Shown: positions 42,066-47,831 of the stretch, piece by piece
Numbering within the stretch: the stretch's first letter is position 1
Layout: every line of letters begins with the position of its first letter
From: Bacteroidia bacterium
Lineage (GTDB): Bacteria; Bacteroidota; Bacteroidia; NS11-12g; UBA9320
NCBI GenBank assembly: GCA_018402155.1
Contig: JAGYJG010000001.1
Span: 694,198 to 758,197 of the forward strand
Length of the DNA: 64,000 nt
Direction: 5' to 3'
Notes under the pieces: model-generated
Database searches by the model: none
What the model was told of the DNA's origin: nothing
What the model saw: only the letters and a program-made list of their open reading frames with translations
Made by a program: the position numbers and the translations under genes

Positions 42066-42746
42066 ATGCTATCAAATTTAACTTATACGGCAAACAATAA
42101 GACCTGTCTTAAAAACCCAGCGGAGTCCGATTTGGGCAGGCGTATTTTATCAGAAAGTATACATCTGATGGACGAGATAGGATTAGAACAATTCACGTTT
42201 CGTAAACTTGCAAACAATATAGGTTCTACTGAGGCGTCAGTTTATCGCTATTTCGAAAATAAGCATAAGCTACTGTTGTACTTGGTAGACTGGTATTGGG
42301 GTTGGTTAGAAAATAAAATTATGACAACGACGCATCATTTGTCATCTCCTTATCATAAACTAGACACTGCTATAGGTCTCTTAGCTAGCCCTATCTCAAT
42401 AGATGCGAGCATTGCCCACATAGATGAAACAAAGCTGTACACAATAATAATATCTGAAGGCCCAAAGGTCTACCTCGTGAAGGGTGTAGACAAGGAAAAT
42501 CTAGATGGAGTATACACGGGGTACAAAGGATTATGTAATATCTTGGCATCATTTATGATAAGCATAAATCCAATGTACAAATACGCACATTCGCTTGCGA
42601 GCACTATCGTAGAAACGTGTCATAATCAAGTTTTCTTTAGTCAGCATTTGCCACGACTTACAGATTTGGAACAAGAAGACTATGCCACACTCAAAGATTT
42701 TGTTATGCATCTTACCTCTTCAACTTTATTACAAAACAAAATTTAA
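42066..42746 (+). CDS. TetR-family transcriptional regulator
   Basis: A 226-residue regulator. The helix-turn-helix is in residues about 28-75 (LSESIHLMDEIGLEQFTFRKLANNI, then TEASVYRYFENKHKLLLYLVDWY), the TetR DNA-binding pattern. The C-terminal domain is divergent and longer than usual and would bind an unknown ligand. Its stop overlaps the ATG of the ABC gene (TAATG), so it is the first gene of the export operon and probably autoregulates it. Confidence 0.85.
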   Translation: MLSNLTYTANNKTCLKNPAESDLGRRILSESIHLMDEIGLEQFTFRKLANNIGSTEASVYRYFENKHKLLLYLVDWYWGWLENKIMTTTHHLSSPYHKLDTAIGLLASPISIDASIAHIDETKLYTIIISEGPKVYLVKGVDKENLDGVYTGYKGLCNILASFMISINPMYKYAHSLASTIVETCHNQVFFSQHLPRLTDLEQEDYATLKDFVMHLTSSTLLQNKI

Positions 42747-44377
42747 TGAAACCGATACAACGTTTTTGGGGATTATTAAAACAAGACAAAAAAGATCTTT
42801 TGTACTTGTATTTATATGCTGTTTGTAATGGCATCATAAACTTATCTTTACCCGTAGGTATTCAGGCTATATTGGGTTTGGTGCTGGCAGGTAGGTTGAG
42901 TGCTAGCTGGGGTATACTTACCGTTATAGTTATGCTAGGGGTAGCCATAGCTGGAGTTTTTCAGATTATGCAATTATATATAGTCGAGGTATTGCAACGT
43001 CGCCTTTTTGCTCGTGCAGCATTTGATTTTGCATATCGCATACCGAAATTAAAACTCAATAAACTAGGTAACTACTATGTTCCTGAGTTAGTAAATCGTT
43101 TTTTTGATACGGTTACTATCCAAAAGAGTTTGAGCAAAATTTTAATGGATTTTAGTGCGTCCATTTTGCAAATTATTTTTGGACTCATTCTTTTATCCTT
43201 ATATCACCCTATTTTTATAGCTTTCGGTCTTACACTACTTTTTGTTTTGTTTTTGATAATATATATCACGAGTAAGCCAGGTATGCGCACTAGTTTAGAA
43301 GAAAGTAACAACAAATACGAAATGGCTTTTTGGCTCACAGAGTTAGCACGTGCACTACCCACTTTTAAATTAAGTGCCGCATCTGAGCTCAATTTGAGAC
43401 GGACAGATGCTATAGTGCACAAGTATGTAGATTCCCGTAAAAATCATTTTAAGGTGTTGTTGGGGCAATATGCTAGTGTCATCGGATTAAAAACAGCGGT
43501 GACCGCAGGTTTACTTATAGTTGGGGCATTACTTCTCATACAAAATGCGATAACAATTGGACAATTTGTAGCATCAGAAATTGTTATTATTCTGATTTTA
43601 AATTCATCTGAAAAGCTGATAATGAGTATGGAGGCTATCTATGATGTCCTAACTTCGGTAGAAAAAATAGGCAAGGTAACTGATTTAGAGCTAGAAGAGG
43701 ACATCCCAAACGGTATGCGTTTAGACCCAAATGATAAAATAGGCATAGAAGTTCAAAATTTGAATATTTTTGGTACCCTTGAGCGCAGTAAAATAAGTGA
43801 GAATATTAATTTTATCATTCAACCCGGTAGCAGTGTTTGCTTAACTGGAGATGCGGGAGCAGGAAAGTCTTCAGTGCTAAAAATATTGAGCACGGTTATG
43901 GACAATTATGAGGGTAGTATCTTATATAATGATGTACCAATTCAAAATTTAGATTTGGAACATTTGCGTGCTTCCATAGGATATATATTTGCAGAACAGG
44001 AAATATTTTTTGGAAATTTTATAGAAAACATATCTCTAGGTAGGGAAGATGTAACCGATAGCGAGGTTATTGAAATTTGTCAGCAGGTAGGTTTAGACCA
44101 GCTTATACAGAGTTTTCCTGAAGGTTACCATCACGTTATTTTAAACTCAGAACGGGTTTTTTCTGGTACTGACAGAGCAAGACTTTTGGTAGCTCGCGCA
44201 CTTATTGCCAATCCTAAAATCATTTTTGTTGAGGATATATTTTCAGGCTTAAAAGCAGTACATGCTAAAAAATTAATAGATATACTGATGAATCAATGCA
44301 AGGATAAGACCTTTGTAGTAGTGACTAATAATAATCTTATTTTAGATTATTGCGATACAACAATAGAACTAAAATAA
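42746..44377 (+). CDS. ABC exporter-like protein with degenerate ATPase domain
   Basis: A 543-residue protein. Residues about 15-310 form a membrane domain of the type I exporter kind with five or six helices; there is no C39 peptidase domain. The ATPase domain (about 330-543) keeps Walker A (GDAGAGKSS, near 370), but the other motifs differ. The Q-loop Gln is replaced (GYIFAEQEIFFG). The signature reads VFSGTDRARLLVARAL instead of LSGGQ. Walker B ends FVED instead of LDE. The H-loop His is Asn (VVVTNNNLIL). The fold seems whole, so ATP binding without normal hydrolysis is likely. It lies between tetR and hlyD/tolC genes in a tight operon, so it probably energises or gates that export complex. 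Confidence 0.82.
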   Translation: MKPIQRFWGLLKQDKKDLLYLYLYAVCNGIINLSLPVGIQAILGLVLAGRLSASWGILTVIVMLGVAIAGVFQIMQLYIVEVLQRRLFARAAFDFAYRIPKLKLNKLGNYYVPELVNRFFDTVTIQKSLSKILMDFSASILQIIFGLILLSLYHPIFIAFGLTLLFVLFLIIYITSKPGMRTSLEESNNKYEMAFWLTELARALPTFKLSAASELNLRRTDAIVHKYVDSRKNHFKVLLGQYASVIGLKTAVTAGLLIVGALLLIQNAITIGQFVASEIVIILILNSSEKLIMSMEAIYDVLTSVEKIGKVTDLELEEDIPNGMRLDPNDKIGIEVQNLNIFGTLERSKISENINFIIQPGSSVCLTGDAGAGKSSVLKILSTVMDNYEGSILYNDVPIQNLDLEHLRASIGYIFAEQEIFFGNFIENISLGREDVTDSEVIEICQQVGLDQLIQSFPEGYHHVILNSERVFSGTDRARLLVARALIANPKIIFVEDIFSGLKAVHAKKLIDILMNQCKDKTFVVVTNNNLILDYCDTTIELK

Positions 44378-44389
44378 CAGCGAAGTACG

Positions 44390-45745
44390 ATGCTAAACAT
44401 ATCAAAAAAATCCATAGAGCACTCCATTTGGAAAAAAAGCTATACATCTTTGGAGGAGGTTAAAAATAATCTAGCTCGCCGTGTGTTTCTTAAATTATTG
44501 TTGGGCTTATTTATGCTTGTGATAATTATTCTGTTTTTGCCTTGGACTCAAAATATACAAAGCAAGGGCTTTGTAACCGCACTACGGCCAGACGAACGGC
44601 CTCAAACAATACAAAATACCATACCAGGGAAAATAGAAAAATGGTATGTACAGGAAGGTGATTTAGTGGAAAAAGGAGATACTATTTTGTTTCTCACAGA
44701 GATAAAGACAGAGTATTTTGACCCTGAACTTATAGAAAGAACCAAAGAGCAAGTAGACGCAAAAGCTGGAGGTATAAATGCCTATGAGAATAAACTCAAA
44801 GCATTGGATAATCAGATTCATTCGTTAAACGATTTACAAAAGTTCAAAATGAATATGATAGATAACGAAGTGAAGCAGGCGAGGCTTCAGGTATCTACAG
44901 ACAGCGCAGCTTGGAAGGCGGCAGAAATTGATTACATAACAGCTAATCAGCGACTATCTAGACAAGAGGAGATGTATGAGCAAGGGTTGATTTCACTTAC
45001 AGATTTAGAAACTCGTAGATTGAAATTACAAGAAACAAAAGCAAAATCAATTGAAAAAGAAAACAAGTACGGACTGAGCGTCAATAAATACATAAATACA
45101 TTAATAGAACAAGATCAAGTAGTAAGTGAGTTTGCAGAAAAAATTAGCGATGTACAATCTAAAAGAGGCACAGCCGGAAGTGAACTTTTTGCAGGCCTAA
45201 GCGATATGGCCAAAATGAAAAATCAATTAGTAAATTATCAGCTTAGACAAGATTTTTACTACGTTTTGGCACCGCGAGATGGATTTATTACTCAAGCAAT
45301 CGAAGCGGGTATTGGAGAAAATCTAAAAGAAAATACGCCCATTATAACCATCGTGCCCGAAATATGGAAGAAAGCTGTTGAAATTTTTGTAGACCCCATA
45401 GATTTACCACTTGTAAAAAAAGGGAGTGAGGTGATGTTTCTTTTCGATGGTTGGCCCAGCATAGTTTTCACAGGATGGCCAGAACTTACGTATGGTACGT
45501 TCCCCGGCAACGTACAAGCAGTAGATTATAATATAAGCTCTAATGGAAAATATCGTGTGCTGGTGCAAGAATCAGATAAAAAACCATGGCCAAATGAAGT
45601 ACGTATAGGATCTGGAGCTAGAGGTGTAGCCTTACTCAATAGAGTGCCAGTATGGTATGAGCTTTGGCGTCAGCTAAATGGTTTTCCGCCAGATTATTAC
45701 TTCAATAACGAAACCAAAAAGAATGCGAAACCTAAGGCAAAATAG
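44390..45745 (+). CDS. HlyD-family membrane fusion protein
   Basis: A 451-residue periplasmic adaptor with one N-terminal membrane helix (about 30-55, LLGLFMLVIIILFLPW). Lipoyl-like half-motifs surround a long helical hairpin (about 105-255, e.g. NKLKALDNQIHSLNDLQKF and RLSRQEEMYEQGLISLTDLE). The second lipoyl half is APRDGFITQAIEAGIGE, and a beta-barrel domain ends in RIGSGARGVALLNRVPVWYELWRQ. The ORF starts 12 bp after the ABC gene. It should join the ABC protein to the TolC homologue encoded next. Confidence 0.88.
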   Translation: MLNISKKSIEHSIWKKSYTSLEEVKNNLARRVFLKLLLGLFMLVIIILFLPWTQNIQSKGFVTALRPDERPQTIQNTIPGKIEKWYVQEGDLVEKGDTILFLTEIKTEYFDPELIERTKEQVDAKAGGINAYENKLKALDNQIHSLNDLQKFKMNMIDNEVKQARLQVSTDSAAWKAAEIDYITANQRLSRQEEMYEQGLISLTDLETRRLKLQETKAKSIEKENKYGLSVNKYINTLIEQDQVVSEFAEKISDVQSKRGTAGSELFAGLSDMAKMKNQLVNYQLRQDFYYVLAPRDGFITQAIEAGIGENLKENTPIITIVPEIWKKAVEIFVDPIDLPLVKKGSEVMFLFDGWPSIVFTGWPELTYGTFPGNVQAVDYNISSNGKYRVLVQESDKKPWPNEVRIGSGARGVALLNRVPVWYELWRQLNGFPPDYYFNNETKKNAKPKAK

Positions 45746-47114
45746 TTTTTATTTCATTTTTCTAAGTTTAACCTCTTTTGGTCAGTTGAATGACACGCTG
45801 CGTTTCAACGAAGCTAACTTTTTGAAACAAGTTAAAGATTTTGCGCCCGCTGTGCTGAATAGTGGATTAGAAGTAGGTATCCAAAATCAAGAGTTCTTGG
45901 CTGTTAAAAGTGCATTTGAACCAAAGCTTATGGGTACCTATGCACTCAAAAATTTCAATAATCAGACCTATTTCAATAGACTAAATACTGGCATTAAAAT
46001 AAAAACTCCCCTTGGTATACGTGTAGACGGTGGTTTTGCCTCAAACGACGGAATCTATCTTAACCCAGAATCTAATTTGCCCGTGCAAGGCCTTGCTTTT
46101 GCCGGTGTAGAAATACCTATAGGTGCAGGATTATTGACGGATGAAGATCGAACTGCTGTAAAACAGCAACGCATAGAAAGAGATGCAGCTATGCTAGTAA
46201 ATCAACTTGCAGTTAATGACTACCTGCTAGAGGCGGGCGAATCTTTTTGGGAATGGTATGGCAGTATAATGATGCTTCAAGTGAGTGAGGAAGCAGTAGA
46301 ATTAGCCACCAATAGACTCAATTTCGTTAAAAGTAAAAATAAAATTGGAGAATCTGCTGACATAGATACGCTCGAAGCGTTTATCAATTTCCAAAACCGA
46401 CAAGCACTTAATCTAAGTACTCTAGTACTATGGGAAAAAAATAAAAACTTTGTTCAAAATTATATTTGGCTACCAGACCAAAGGCCCGATGCTTTTCAAC
46501 CTGAGGTAGATATGAACTACACTGCTGTATTACCTGATTCTTTGGTAGATAATGATTTTATAAGCACTCATCCTTTGGTGCGTTTGCTAGAGGCAGACTC
46601 TCTCATAAATAGAGCCGGTATGGCTCTAGCACGAGAGTACTATAAACCACAAGTAGATGTGGCGCTAAAATTACAAGAAAACGCAAGTGATTTTGGACAA
46701 TTTGATTATTCACCAGCTGAGAACCACTATGTAGGAGTTAATTTTTATATGCCACTGCTTCTCAGAAAAGAACGTGCTAAAGCAAAACAATTGCAACTAA
46801 AAGAATCAATCATAAGCAATAAAAAAACTGAGATACTTACAAAAATATATAATGCCCAACGAACTTATTTTGCCAATACTGCTGACCTTAAATCTTCTGT
46901 AATTTTGTGGGGACAAGCTACTATAAACTACCGGGAACTTCTGCGTGCAGAGCAAATGAGATTTAACTTAGGAGAGAGTAGCTTATTTATAGTAAACAGT
47001 AGGGAGTTAAAATGGATAGAAGCTCGTGAAAAGTACATAAAAAGCTATGTAGAGTATCGAAAGTCTATCTTACGCTATTTTCATGCTTTAGGCTCCCTGC
47101 CAGACGTTATTTAG
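45723..47114 (+). CDS. TolC-family outer membrane efflux protein
   Basis: A 463-residue outer membrane channel subunit. The ATG at 45723 starts a signal peptide (RNLRQNSFYFIFLSLTSFGQ); an earlier in-frame ATG at 45678 lies deeper in the preceding gene. The gene overlaps the HlyD gene by 23 bp in another frame. The two long helix pairs of the OEP fold are visible (e.g. LLEAGESFWEWYGSIMMLQ...RLNFVKSKNKIGESADIDTLEA, and again REYYKPQVDVALKLQ...ERAKAKQLQLKES, RAEQMRFNLGESSLFIVN). Last gene of the TetR-ABC-HlyD-TolC operon. Confidence 0.88.
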   Translation: MRNLRQNSFYFIFLSLTSFGQLNDTLRFNEANFLKQVKDFAPAVLNSGLEVGIQNQEFLAVKSAFEPKLMGTYALKNFNNQTYFNRLNTGIKIKTPLGIRVDGGFASNDGIYLNPESNLPVQGLAFAGVEIPIGAGLLTDEDRTAVKQQRIERDAAMLVNQLAVNDYLLEAGESFWEWYGSIMMLQVSEEAVELATNRLNFVKSKNKIGESADIDTLEAFINFQNRQALNLSTLVLWEKNKNFVQNYIWLPDQRPDAFQPEVDMNYTAVLPDSLVDNDFISTHPLVRLLEADSLINRAGMALAREYYKPQVDVALKLQENASDFGQFDYSPAENHYVGVNFYMPLLLRKERAKAKQLQLKESIISNKKTEILTKIYNAQRTYFANTADLKSSVILWGQATINYRELLRAEQMRFNLGESSLFIVNSRELKWIEAREKYIKSYVEYRKSILRYFHALGSLPDVI

Positions 47115-47198: not shown

Positions 47199-47831
47199 CT
47201 AAAGTACTACTATTTTACTGCTATATCGCTGTTTTTGTGGGGCATATAAGTCTAAGTAAAATACCCCTGTCGGGAGTAAAAAGGAGCCGATGTTAATTTT
47301 TTCATCGCGTGTTTGGGTCACCAGAAATACATTTCCATTTATATCGTATACAGTAAGTGTATAGAGTGTTTGCTCTTTATTTTCATAGTAGATTGTAGAG
47401 CTACTTACCACCGGGTGCGGTAAGATTAAAATGCTATTGTTCAATTTTAGTACAACTAGGCTAATGGTGTTTGAGTAGCCTACAGTTCCGAGTTCGAGCT
47501 TGATAAAATTGCGTTCATTAAGGAAGGTATTTTCTAATAAGTAGGTGTATTGTTTTTCGCTAGTATCTCCGCACATTCCAAAGTAAGTTCCCCGTCTTTC
47601 GTATCCTAAGAGACTATCGCGCGATACATAAATATGTATGTCTTGACAAGTAAACCCAGCACGAGTAGTCCAACTTAAGTATATACTTCCGTTTTTAGCA
47701 TTAGCAGTAAAAGATTTTATGAATGGATTATTTTCTTGCTGACCAAAAGTCTCAATTGAACTAAAAAAGAGTAAAAACAAGATTGCAGTGTACCTTCTCA
47801 ACGTATTTATATGTTTACTTTTGCTACTCAT
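47199..47831 (-). CDS. Small secreted protein with T9SS type A sorting domain
   Basis: A 210-residue exported protein: a basic N-terminus and signal peptide (RRYTAILFLLFFSSIETFGQ), a short fibronectin-like beta domain (about 35-125, GSIYLSWTTRAGF...IYVSRD), and a type A C-terminal sorting domain (LTVYDINGNVFLVTQ..., LPTGVFYLDLY). It would leave the cell through the type IX system. Function unknown. Its ATG (47829-47831) is only 6 bp from the ATG of the divergent kdsA. Two Cys residues in the middle may form a disulfide. Confidence 0.72.
   Translation of the reverse strand: MSSKSKHINTLRRYTAILFLLFFSSIETFGQQENNPFIKSFTANAKNGSIYLSWTTRAGFTCQDIHIYVSRDSLLGYERRGTYFGMCGDTSEKQYTYLLENTFLNERNFIKLELGTVGYSNTISLVVLKLNNSILILPHPVVSSSTIYYENKEQTLYTLTVYDINGNVFLVTQTRDEKINIGSFLLPTGVFYLDLYAPQKQRYSSKIVVL
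47816..47823 (+). promoter_or_regulatory. kdsA: -7 box of kdsA, inside the divergent gene
   Basis: TACTTTTG matches TAnnTTTG, 14 bp before the kdsA ATG at 47838, and it lies within the first codons of the minus-strand T9SS cargo gene. Confidence 0.5.

Follow-up and report, generated by a model that had tools for sequence, protein, structure and literature searches.

How can a tripartite exporter be driven if nearly all catalytic motifs of its ABC protein are altered? The operon raising this question lies in a stretch of 64,000 nucleotides, analysed here as a whole (the window, bases 694198-758197 of contig 1 of the genome). It comprises four genes in the order TetR-ABC-HlyD-TolC, as claimed in a preliminary description made from the letters alone and as borne out by open reading frames (ORFs) and Pfam matches, and is placed after a gene which, judging from its translation, is presumably gpmI. 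The start codon of the ABC gene lies inside the stop codon of the TetR gene (TAATG). The features are:

42066..42746, + strand: TetR-family regulator, first gene of the operon (ORF, PF00440)
42746..44377, + strand: ABC exporter half with degenerate nucleotide-binding domain (NBD), 543 aa (ORF, Pfam, AlphaFold model)
42746..43693, + strand: transmembrane domain (TMD), residues 1-316, the conserved core of the family (alignments A1 and A2)
43364..43369, + strand: Phe207-Lys208 in coupling helix 2 (census; helix 204-209 in the model)
43577..43579, + strand: Glu278 in TM6 (99% conserved in all four architectures; model pLDDT low at 273-289)
43733..44374, + strand: pseudo-NBD, residues 330-543 (alignment, motif census, selection)
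43847..43870, + strand: Walker A GDAGAGKS, residues 368-375, intact (read from the sequence)
43991..43993, + strand: Q-loop position, Ala416 replacing Gln (sequence and alignment)
44159..44173, + strand: signature position, FSGTD (472-476) replacing LSGGQ (sequence and alignment)
44231..44236, + strand: Walker B position, Glu496-Asp497 replacing Asp-Glu (sequence and alignment)
44327..44329, + strand: H-loop position, Asn528 replacing His (sequence and alignment)
44390..45745, + strand: HlyD-type periplasmic adaptor, 451 aa (ORF, Pfam)
45678..47114, + strand: TolC-type outer-membrane channel, 478 aa from the first ATG (ORF, Pfam OEP)

The ABC protein matches the Pfam families ABC_membrane (PF00664, residues 20-279) and ABC_tran (residues 352-494), and no C39 peptidase domain was detected in it by the Pfam scan, in agreement with the preliminary description. 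An AlphaFold model calculated with 72 family rows (mean pLDDT 80) exhibits a type IV exporter fold with six long helices, coupling-helix segments at residues 104-107 and 204-209 and a well predicted NBD fold. Its best matches in the PDB (Foldseek) were PCAT1, TM287/288 and HlyB. The window protein possesses the TMD fold of type IV exporters with six TM helices and intracellular loops, and an adaptor and an outer-membrane channel are encoded alongside it, as in tripartite exporters. Walker A is kept in its NBD, and the alterations of the other motifs to Ala416, FSGTD, Glu496-Asp497 and Asn528 are those that had been claimed. At 47199-47831 on the minus strand we noticed a gene for a small secreted protein, the C-terminal end of which resembles a type IX secretion sorting domain by eye.

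Motif loss in the family and its order

A match was present in 34 of 58 related genomes, and the same kind of motif losses was seen in all aligned NBDs. A TMD profile built from 18 sequences (A1) matched 200 of 395 Bacteroidia genomes at E<=1e-15 and 77 of 296 genomes of a phylum sample; 30 genomes were searched individually besides the matches listed for the 200. Relatives named among the best 80 of 576 loci, in a census leaning to near relatives, include Polaribacter, Tenacibaculum, Maribacter, Pontibacter, Cyclobacterium, Roseivirga and Saprospiraceae, the nearest named one among these 80 being the uncultured Bacteroidetes bacterium UBA10340 (88% in the TMD). From 293 TMD-matching ORFs, 273 complete ones were retained (20 fragments or open-ended ORFs were dropped) and, after removal of 17 duplicates, 256 unique relatives, nearly all of class Bacteroidia. 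These comprise 187 TMD-NBD proteins, 48 TMD-NBD proteins with an N-terminal extension, 11 TMD-only proteins and 10 TMD-HlyD fusions.

Not one of the 235 NBD-bearing relatives contains the SGG of the signature. The full Walker A consensus was found in 198 and is missing in 37 of them, the Q-loop Gln is present in 12, the Walker B Asp in 58, the Asp-Glu pair (DE) in 15 and the H-loop His in 11. At most four of the six canonical features occur together (in three proteins), and all six in none of the 235. For Walker A we prefer the full-consensus figure of 198 to the 214 proteins with a Walker A Lys by alignment column, which include at least one chance Lys (L187). In a control set of canonical exporters of the same class (31 rows including the query, one of them truncated), all 31 rows contain Walker A Lys and Gln, and 30 contain LSGGQ, DE and His; the canonical exporters of the window genome keep their motifs, too. 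Chance does not explain the loss, as SGG is missing from all 235 relatives and the motifs persist in canonical exporters from this genome and class. A single degenerate copy, which the preliminary description had proposed to recognise by comparing homologues, is ruled out by this family-wide loss, and its view that the locus is not in simple decay agrees with the family-wide alterations and the intact partner genes. In the accessible part of the open-access literature, to which most subscription papers do not belong, we found no description of this exporter family, and the reader of the sequence was right to single it out as an undescribed-looking transport system.

In 13 C39-type exporters serving as a further control, Gln, Walker A Lys, DE and His are present throughout and an LSxGQ-like signature in nine. 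Bacteroidota ABC transporters with a C39 peptidase (L366-L378) often carry LSxGQ (third place A, T, M, Q or V), with Q-loop, DE and His intact. An altered third signature residue alone is therefore no proof of inactivity. The N-terminal extension of the 48 members mentioned above (L179-L190, L261, L269-L316) comprises about 165-200 aa. Neither of two scanned extensions gave a Pfam match, and alignment to C39 domains was weak (hhalign E 6e-4, probability 28%). At five loci (L024, L027, L193, L216, L220) the family gene is split over two frames or interrupted by a stop codon, due either to assembly errors or to true pseudogenes.

Nineteen homologues from classes of the phylum other than that of the window (L400-L418) exhibit a different pattern. 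All 19 contain Walker A, 18 DE and 15 the H-loop His; the Q-loop Gln and SGG occur in none, and LSTGQ in two. HlyD and TolC follow downstream of nearly all of them (none was recognised at L400, and L410 has HlyD without TolC), and they form one side of the tree (SH-aLRT support 99). Motif pattern and tree position together indicate an order of loss beginning with Q-loop and signature, followed by Walker B and H-loop and then by Walker A or the whole NBD. As to homologues of the same operon with canonical motifs, which according to the preliminary description would have spoken for a degenerate single case, the full set was found in none of the 254 NBD-bearing proteins (235 and 19), but the sister-class members do keep Walker A and mostly DE and His next to a changed Q-loop and signature.

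This near-intact state in the sister classes, like the LSTGQ-like signatures in otherwise intact C39-type ABC transporters, could be taken as a sign that the NBD-bearing members still hydrolyse ATP by a divergent mechanism and that the NBD-less members have changed their function. We regard this as very unlikely: DE and His are lost in nearly all Bacteroidia members, and the NBD is less conserved than the TMD in every family pair. In none of the 7021 family pairs was identity higher in the NBD than in the TMD (mean 0.35 for the NBD and 0.59 for the TMD); in the canonical control set this was so for 98.5% of 465 pairs (means 0.59 and 0.37). The sister classes lie in between (20% of 171 pairs).

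Loss of the NBD and erosion of the coupling loops

TMD-only proteins were found in the families coded f2, f68 and f42; one more, L419 of f51, stands outside the 256 and groups with those of f42 in the tree. Altogether they form two clades. The TMD-HlyD fusions, distributed over six family codes (f4, f12, f29, f32, f43, f44), form a single clade (SH-aLRT support 99-100). The absence of the NBD requires three changes, i.e. three separate losses, on both of our trees; these were quick trees with SH-aLRT support only, one with far outgroups and the other with a sister-class outgroup and without L202, which joined the long branches of the far outgroups in the tree rooted with them. The f2 TMD-only clade is sister (support 100) to NBD-bearing proteins in which the Walker A Lys is replaced by Arg, and these sisters are a step toward NBD loss. 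At ten loci (L185, L187, L223, L240, L260, L262, L300, L308, L310, L312) Walker A is wholly gone with an NBD-sized tail still present, apparently the last stage before the domain is lost.

An artefact at a contig end accounts for the TMD-only protein L171, which was not counted; the 11 counted ones end in a stop codon and are directly followed by HlyD. A split of the NBD into a neighbouring gene was not seen at any of the 21 loci (11 TMD-only, 10 fusions), and ABC_tran was absent from eight NBD-less proteins in a Pfam scan at E<=0.1. At L173, an ordinary NBD gene of 286 aa is located 4.2 kb away from the NBD-less gene.

The remaining pseudo-NBDs are under purifying selection, with a median dN/dS of 0.12 (TMD 0.036) and values below 0.5 in all 40 pairs for which it was computable, the other 40 of the 80 pairs being saturated. 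The coupling loops are conserved only together with the domain. Mean identity in ICL1 is 0.24 in TMD-only proteins and 0.21 in fusions compared to 0.50 in NBD-bearing proteins, and in ICL2 0.20 and 0.13 compared to 0.43, while TM3 (0.60 and 0.72 vs 0.63) and TM6 (0.53 and 0.68 vs 0.66) hold; the NBD-bearing reference is a sample of 60 of the 235. Phe207-Lys208, counted over residues 200-216, occurs in 211 of 235 NBD-bearing and in none of 21 NBD-less members. Since erosion of the loops coincides with absence of the NBD, a pseudo-NBD that is present is probably still docked on them, and in NBD-less members nothing seems to dock.

The preliminary description had considered that ATP binding alone gates the duct. 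In such a nucleotide-gated channel or facilitator, binding without hydrolysis would open the TMD or the HlyD-TolC duct, and the full Walker A in 198 of 235 proteins as well as the selection on a pseudo-NBD co-conserved with the coupling loops would fit. With partner genes intact, however, 37 of 235 members lack the Walker A consensus and 21 of 256 the entire NBD, so nucleotide gating is no general mechanism. For the family as a whole we consider it rather improbable, though nucleotide binding may regulate the NBD-bearing members, and in this part the proposal stands.

The second proposal, that another ABC subunit supplies hydrolysis, found no support. The pseudo-ABC protein would then have a structural or regulatory role in a heteromer, and hydrolysis would fall to an ordinary ABC exporter from another locus, in the way a degenerate and a consensus site divide the task in TM287/288 or TmrAB. 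Heterodimers with a degenerate site are described in the accessible part of the review PMC7756269, the closest PDB folds include one of them (TM287/288), and canonical exporters are encoded in 59 of 60 genomes. According to the same source, signature, Walker B and H-loop of one NBD are altered in TM287/288 and TmrAB, too, but there the partner NBD restores one consensus site, whereas here the search revealed no partner, and a homodimer would have two degenerate sites. Another NBD gene was located nearby in 4 of 100 scanned loci, always 3-7 kb off and never within the operon. The 30 best NBD matches retrieved from 18 genomes with NBD-less proteins were all fused exporters of 583-762 aa, with no stand-alone NBD among them. 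Moreover, the coupling-loop motif is lost in NBD-less members, and the TMD-HlyD fusions favour a self-sufficient unit. A heteromer is thus unlikely.

Partner genes and charged residues of the TMD

The partner genes were retained irrespective of the state of the NBD. Among NBD-bearing loci with enough flank, HlyD follows the ABC gene in 137 of 138 and in 43 of 44 cases, and TolC is present in 133 of 134 and 42 of 43. HlyD overlaps each of the 11 TMD-only genes or follows it within 100 bases, and in all enlarged loci TolC comes after HlyD (truncated at the end of the contig in L177). In the 10 fusions the homologue of the window HlyD is joined to the TMD with no NBD between; TolC is located downstream of all 10, and a TetR gene adjoins in nine. 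Where there was room to see, TetR adjoins at 82 of 127 TMD-NBD and 11 of 42 N-extended loci. Upstream of one TMD-only gene, a 1368-aa ORF matching the TolC profile (L362:10896-14999, minus strand) possibly represents a transporter-channel fusion.

Several charged residues of the TMD are conserved across architectures: Glu81 (98%), Lys127 (100%), Lys131 (97%), Lys190 (100%), Glu278 (99%), Lys290 (98%), Asp300 (98%) and Lys307 (100%). Their placement in the membrane is deduced from predicted helices, and the model around Glu278 is of low confidence. Of 13 C39-type exporters none contains Glu81, Glu278 or Lys290, and Asp300 is present in eight. The same charged residues are found in the sister classes (Glu81 mostly as Asp), where the NBD is nearly intact, indicating that they predate the loss of the NBD and did not evolve as a substitute for ATP. 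Their role may concern the substrate, the dimer or the gate; an older ion-coupled core would be compatible with them as well, though not proved.

With its motor lost and in some members fused to HlyD, the protein might no longer be a transporter at all but a membrane scaffold or sensor for HlyD-TolC. Against this speak the TMD, which is better conserved than any other part of the protein (on average 59% identity between pairs), and its family-wide charged residues, neither of which a mere anchor would need. We therefore consider a scaffold or sensor extremely unlikely.

Proposed mechanism and comparison with known transporters

A different energy source is probable, since the ATPase domain decayed stepwise and was deleted at least three times with the rest of the pump intact; the persistence of Walker A in most members implies that ATP may still matter there. 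On balance, it appears fairly probable to us that the family comprises ABC-fold tripartite exporters working without ATP hydrolysis, in which the pseudo-NBD, where present, is regulatory and the driving force probably the ion motive force. An ABC-fold dimer in the inner membrane, the adaptor HlyD and the channel TolC would make up the tripartite exporter, with TetR as its regulator. Its inner-membrane protein would descend from an ABC exporter and have lost the ATPase function, presumably with signature and Q-loop changing first (sister classes), Walker B and H-loop next (Bacteroidia) and the whole NBD being lost in at least three lineages. Where retained, the folded and selected pseudo-NBD would dock on the coupling loops, probably bind nucleotides and play a regulatory or structural part. 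Transport would most likely use proton or ion motive force through Glu81, Lys127, Lys131, Lys190, Glu278, Lys290 and Asp300 and be directed outward into the HlyD-TolC duct, otherwise proceeding as in SbmA and NBD-less MsbA. A small molecule is suggested as substrate by the presence of a TetR regulator and by the fact that neither a peptidase nor a cargo gene was seen.

Precedents for the proposed ATP-free transport exist. SbmA is driven by protons after the loss of its NBD and coupling helices and has conserved acidic TMD residues (accessible text of PMC13316013), and NBD-less MsbA (MsbA-MD) and LmrA-MD are described to carry out proton-coupled drug transport by the TMD alone (PMC4979069, likewise in part). 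As far as these sources go, they render ATP-free, ion-driven export physically reasonable. The family resembles SbmA/BacA (SLiPT) in its conserved acidic TMD residues (for SbmA, see PMC13316013) and, in 21 of 256 relatives not including the window protein, in an ABC-exporter TMD without NBD and coupling helices. Its origin, however, is apparently separate: TMD profile and fold point to ComA/PCAT1 with ABC_membrane as the only Pfam match of the TMD, no Pfam match to the SbmA/BacA family was obtained for the window protein (E<=0.001) or for eight NBD-less relatives (E<=0.1), and the family, unlike SbmA/BacA, has an export operon with HlyD and TolC and extant intermediates with a decaying NBD. 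MsbA-MD and LmrA-MD, in turn, are laboratory truncations, whereas the NBD-less proteins of the family are natural and arose repeatedly.

Fold, TMD ancestry and HlyD-TolC partners are shared with the type IV exporters PCAT1, ComA and HlyB of type 1 secretion, and the N-terminal extension of some members aligns weakly with C39 domains. In contrast to those exporters, SGG is found in 0 of 254 NBD-bearing proteins, the NBD is missing in 21 of 256 and the window protein has no peptidase domain; by the census of motifs and architectures, the working ABC ATPase of type 1 secretion is lacking. The proposed arrangement of a non-ATP inner-membrane pump, an HlyD-type adaptor and TolC corresponds to EmrAB-TolC (PMC8277102, accessible part), except that the inner-membrane part has an ABC fold here and is an MFS protein there. 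ABC, RND and MFS are the engines of tripartite pumps named in that part of the review. Tentatively, and a little short of calling it probable, we propose that an ion-driven, ABC-fold protein is a third non-ATP inner-membrane engine of tripartite exporters besides RND and MFS, with all stages of the transition from ATP to ions extant. On the same tentative reading, a near-intact ATPase (sister classes) would be followed by a pseudo-ATPase (Bacteroidia), then by proteins devoid of the NBD and by a fusion of transporter and adaptor in a single chain.

It is the ATPase that defines ABC exporters. At least three losses of this motor with TMD, adaptor and channel kept suggest that the TMD alone can transport in nature, and the family offers an existing evolutionary series in which the conversion of a primary into a secondary transporter can be tested. 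If the favoured reading is true, many such Bacteroidota genes with an ABC_tran match encode non-working ATPases. Two of the TMD-only proteins match no Pfam family, so that domain annotation misses some family members.
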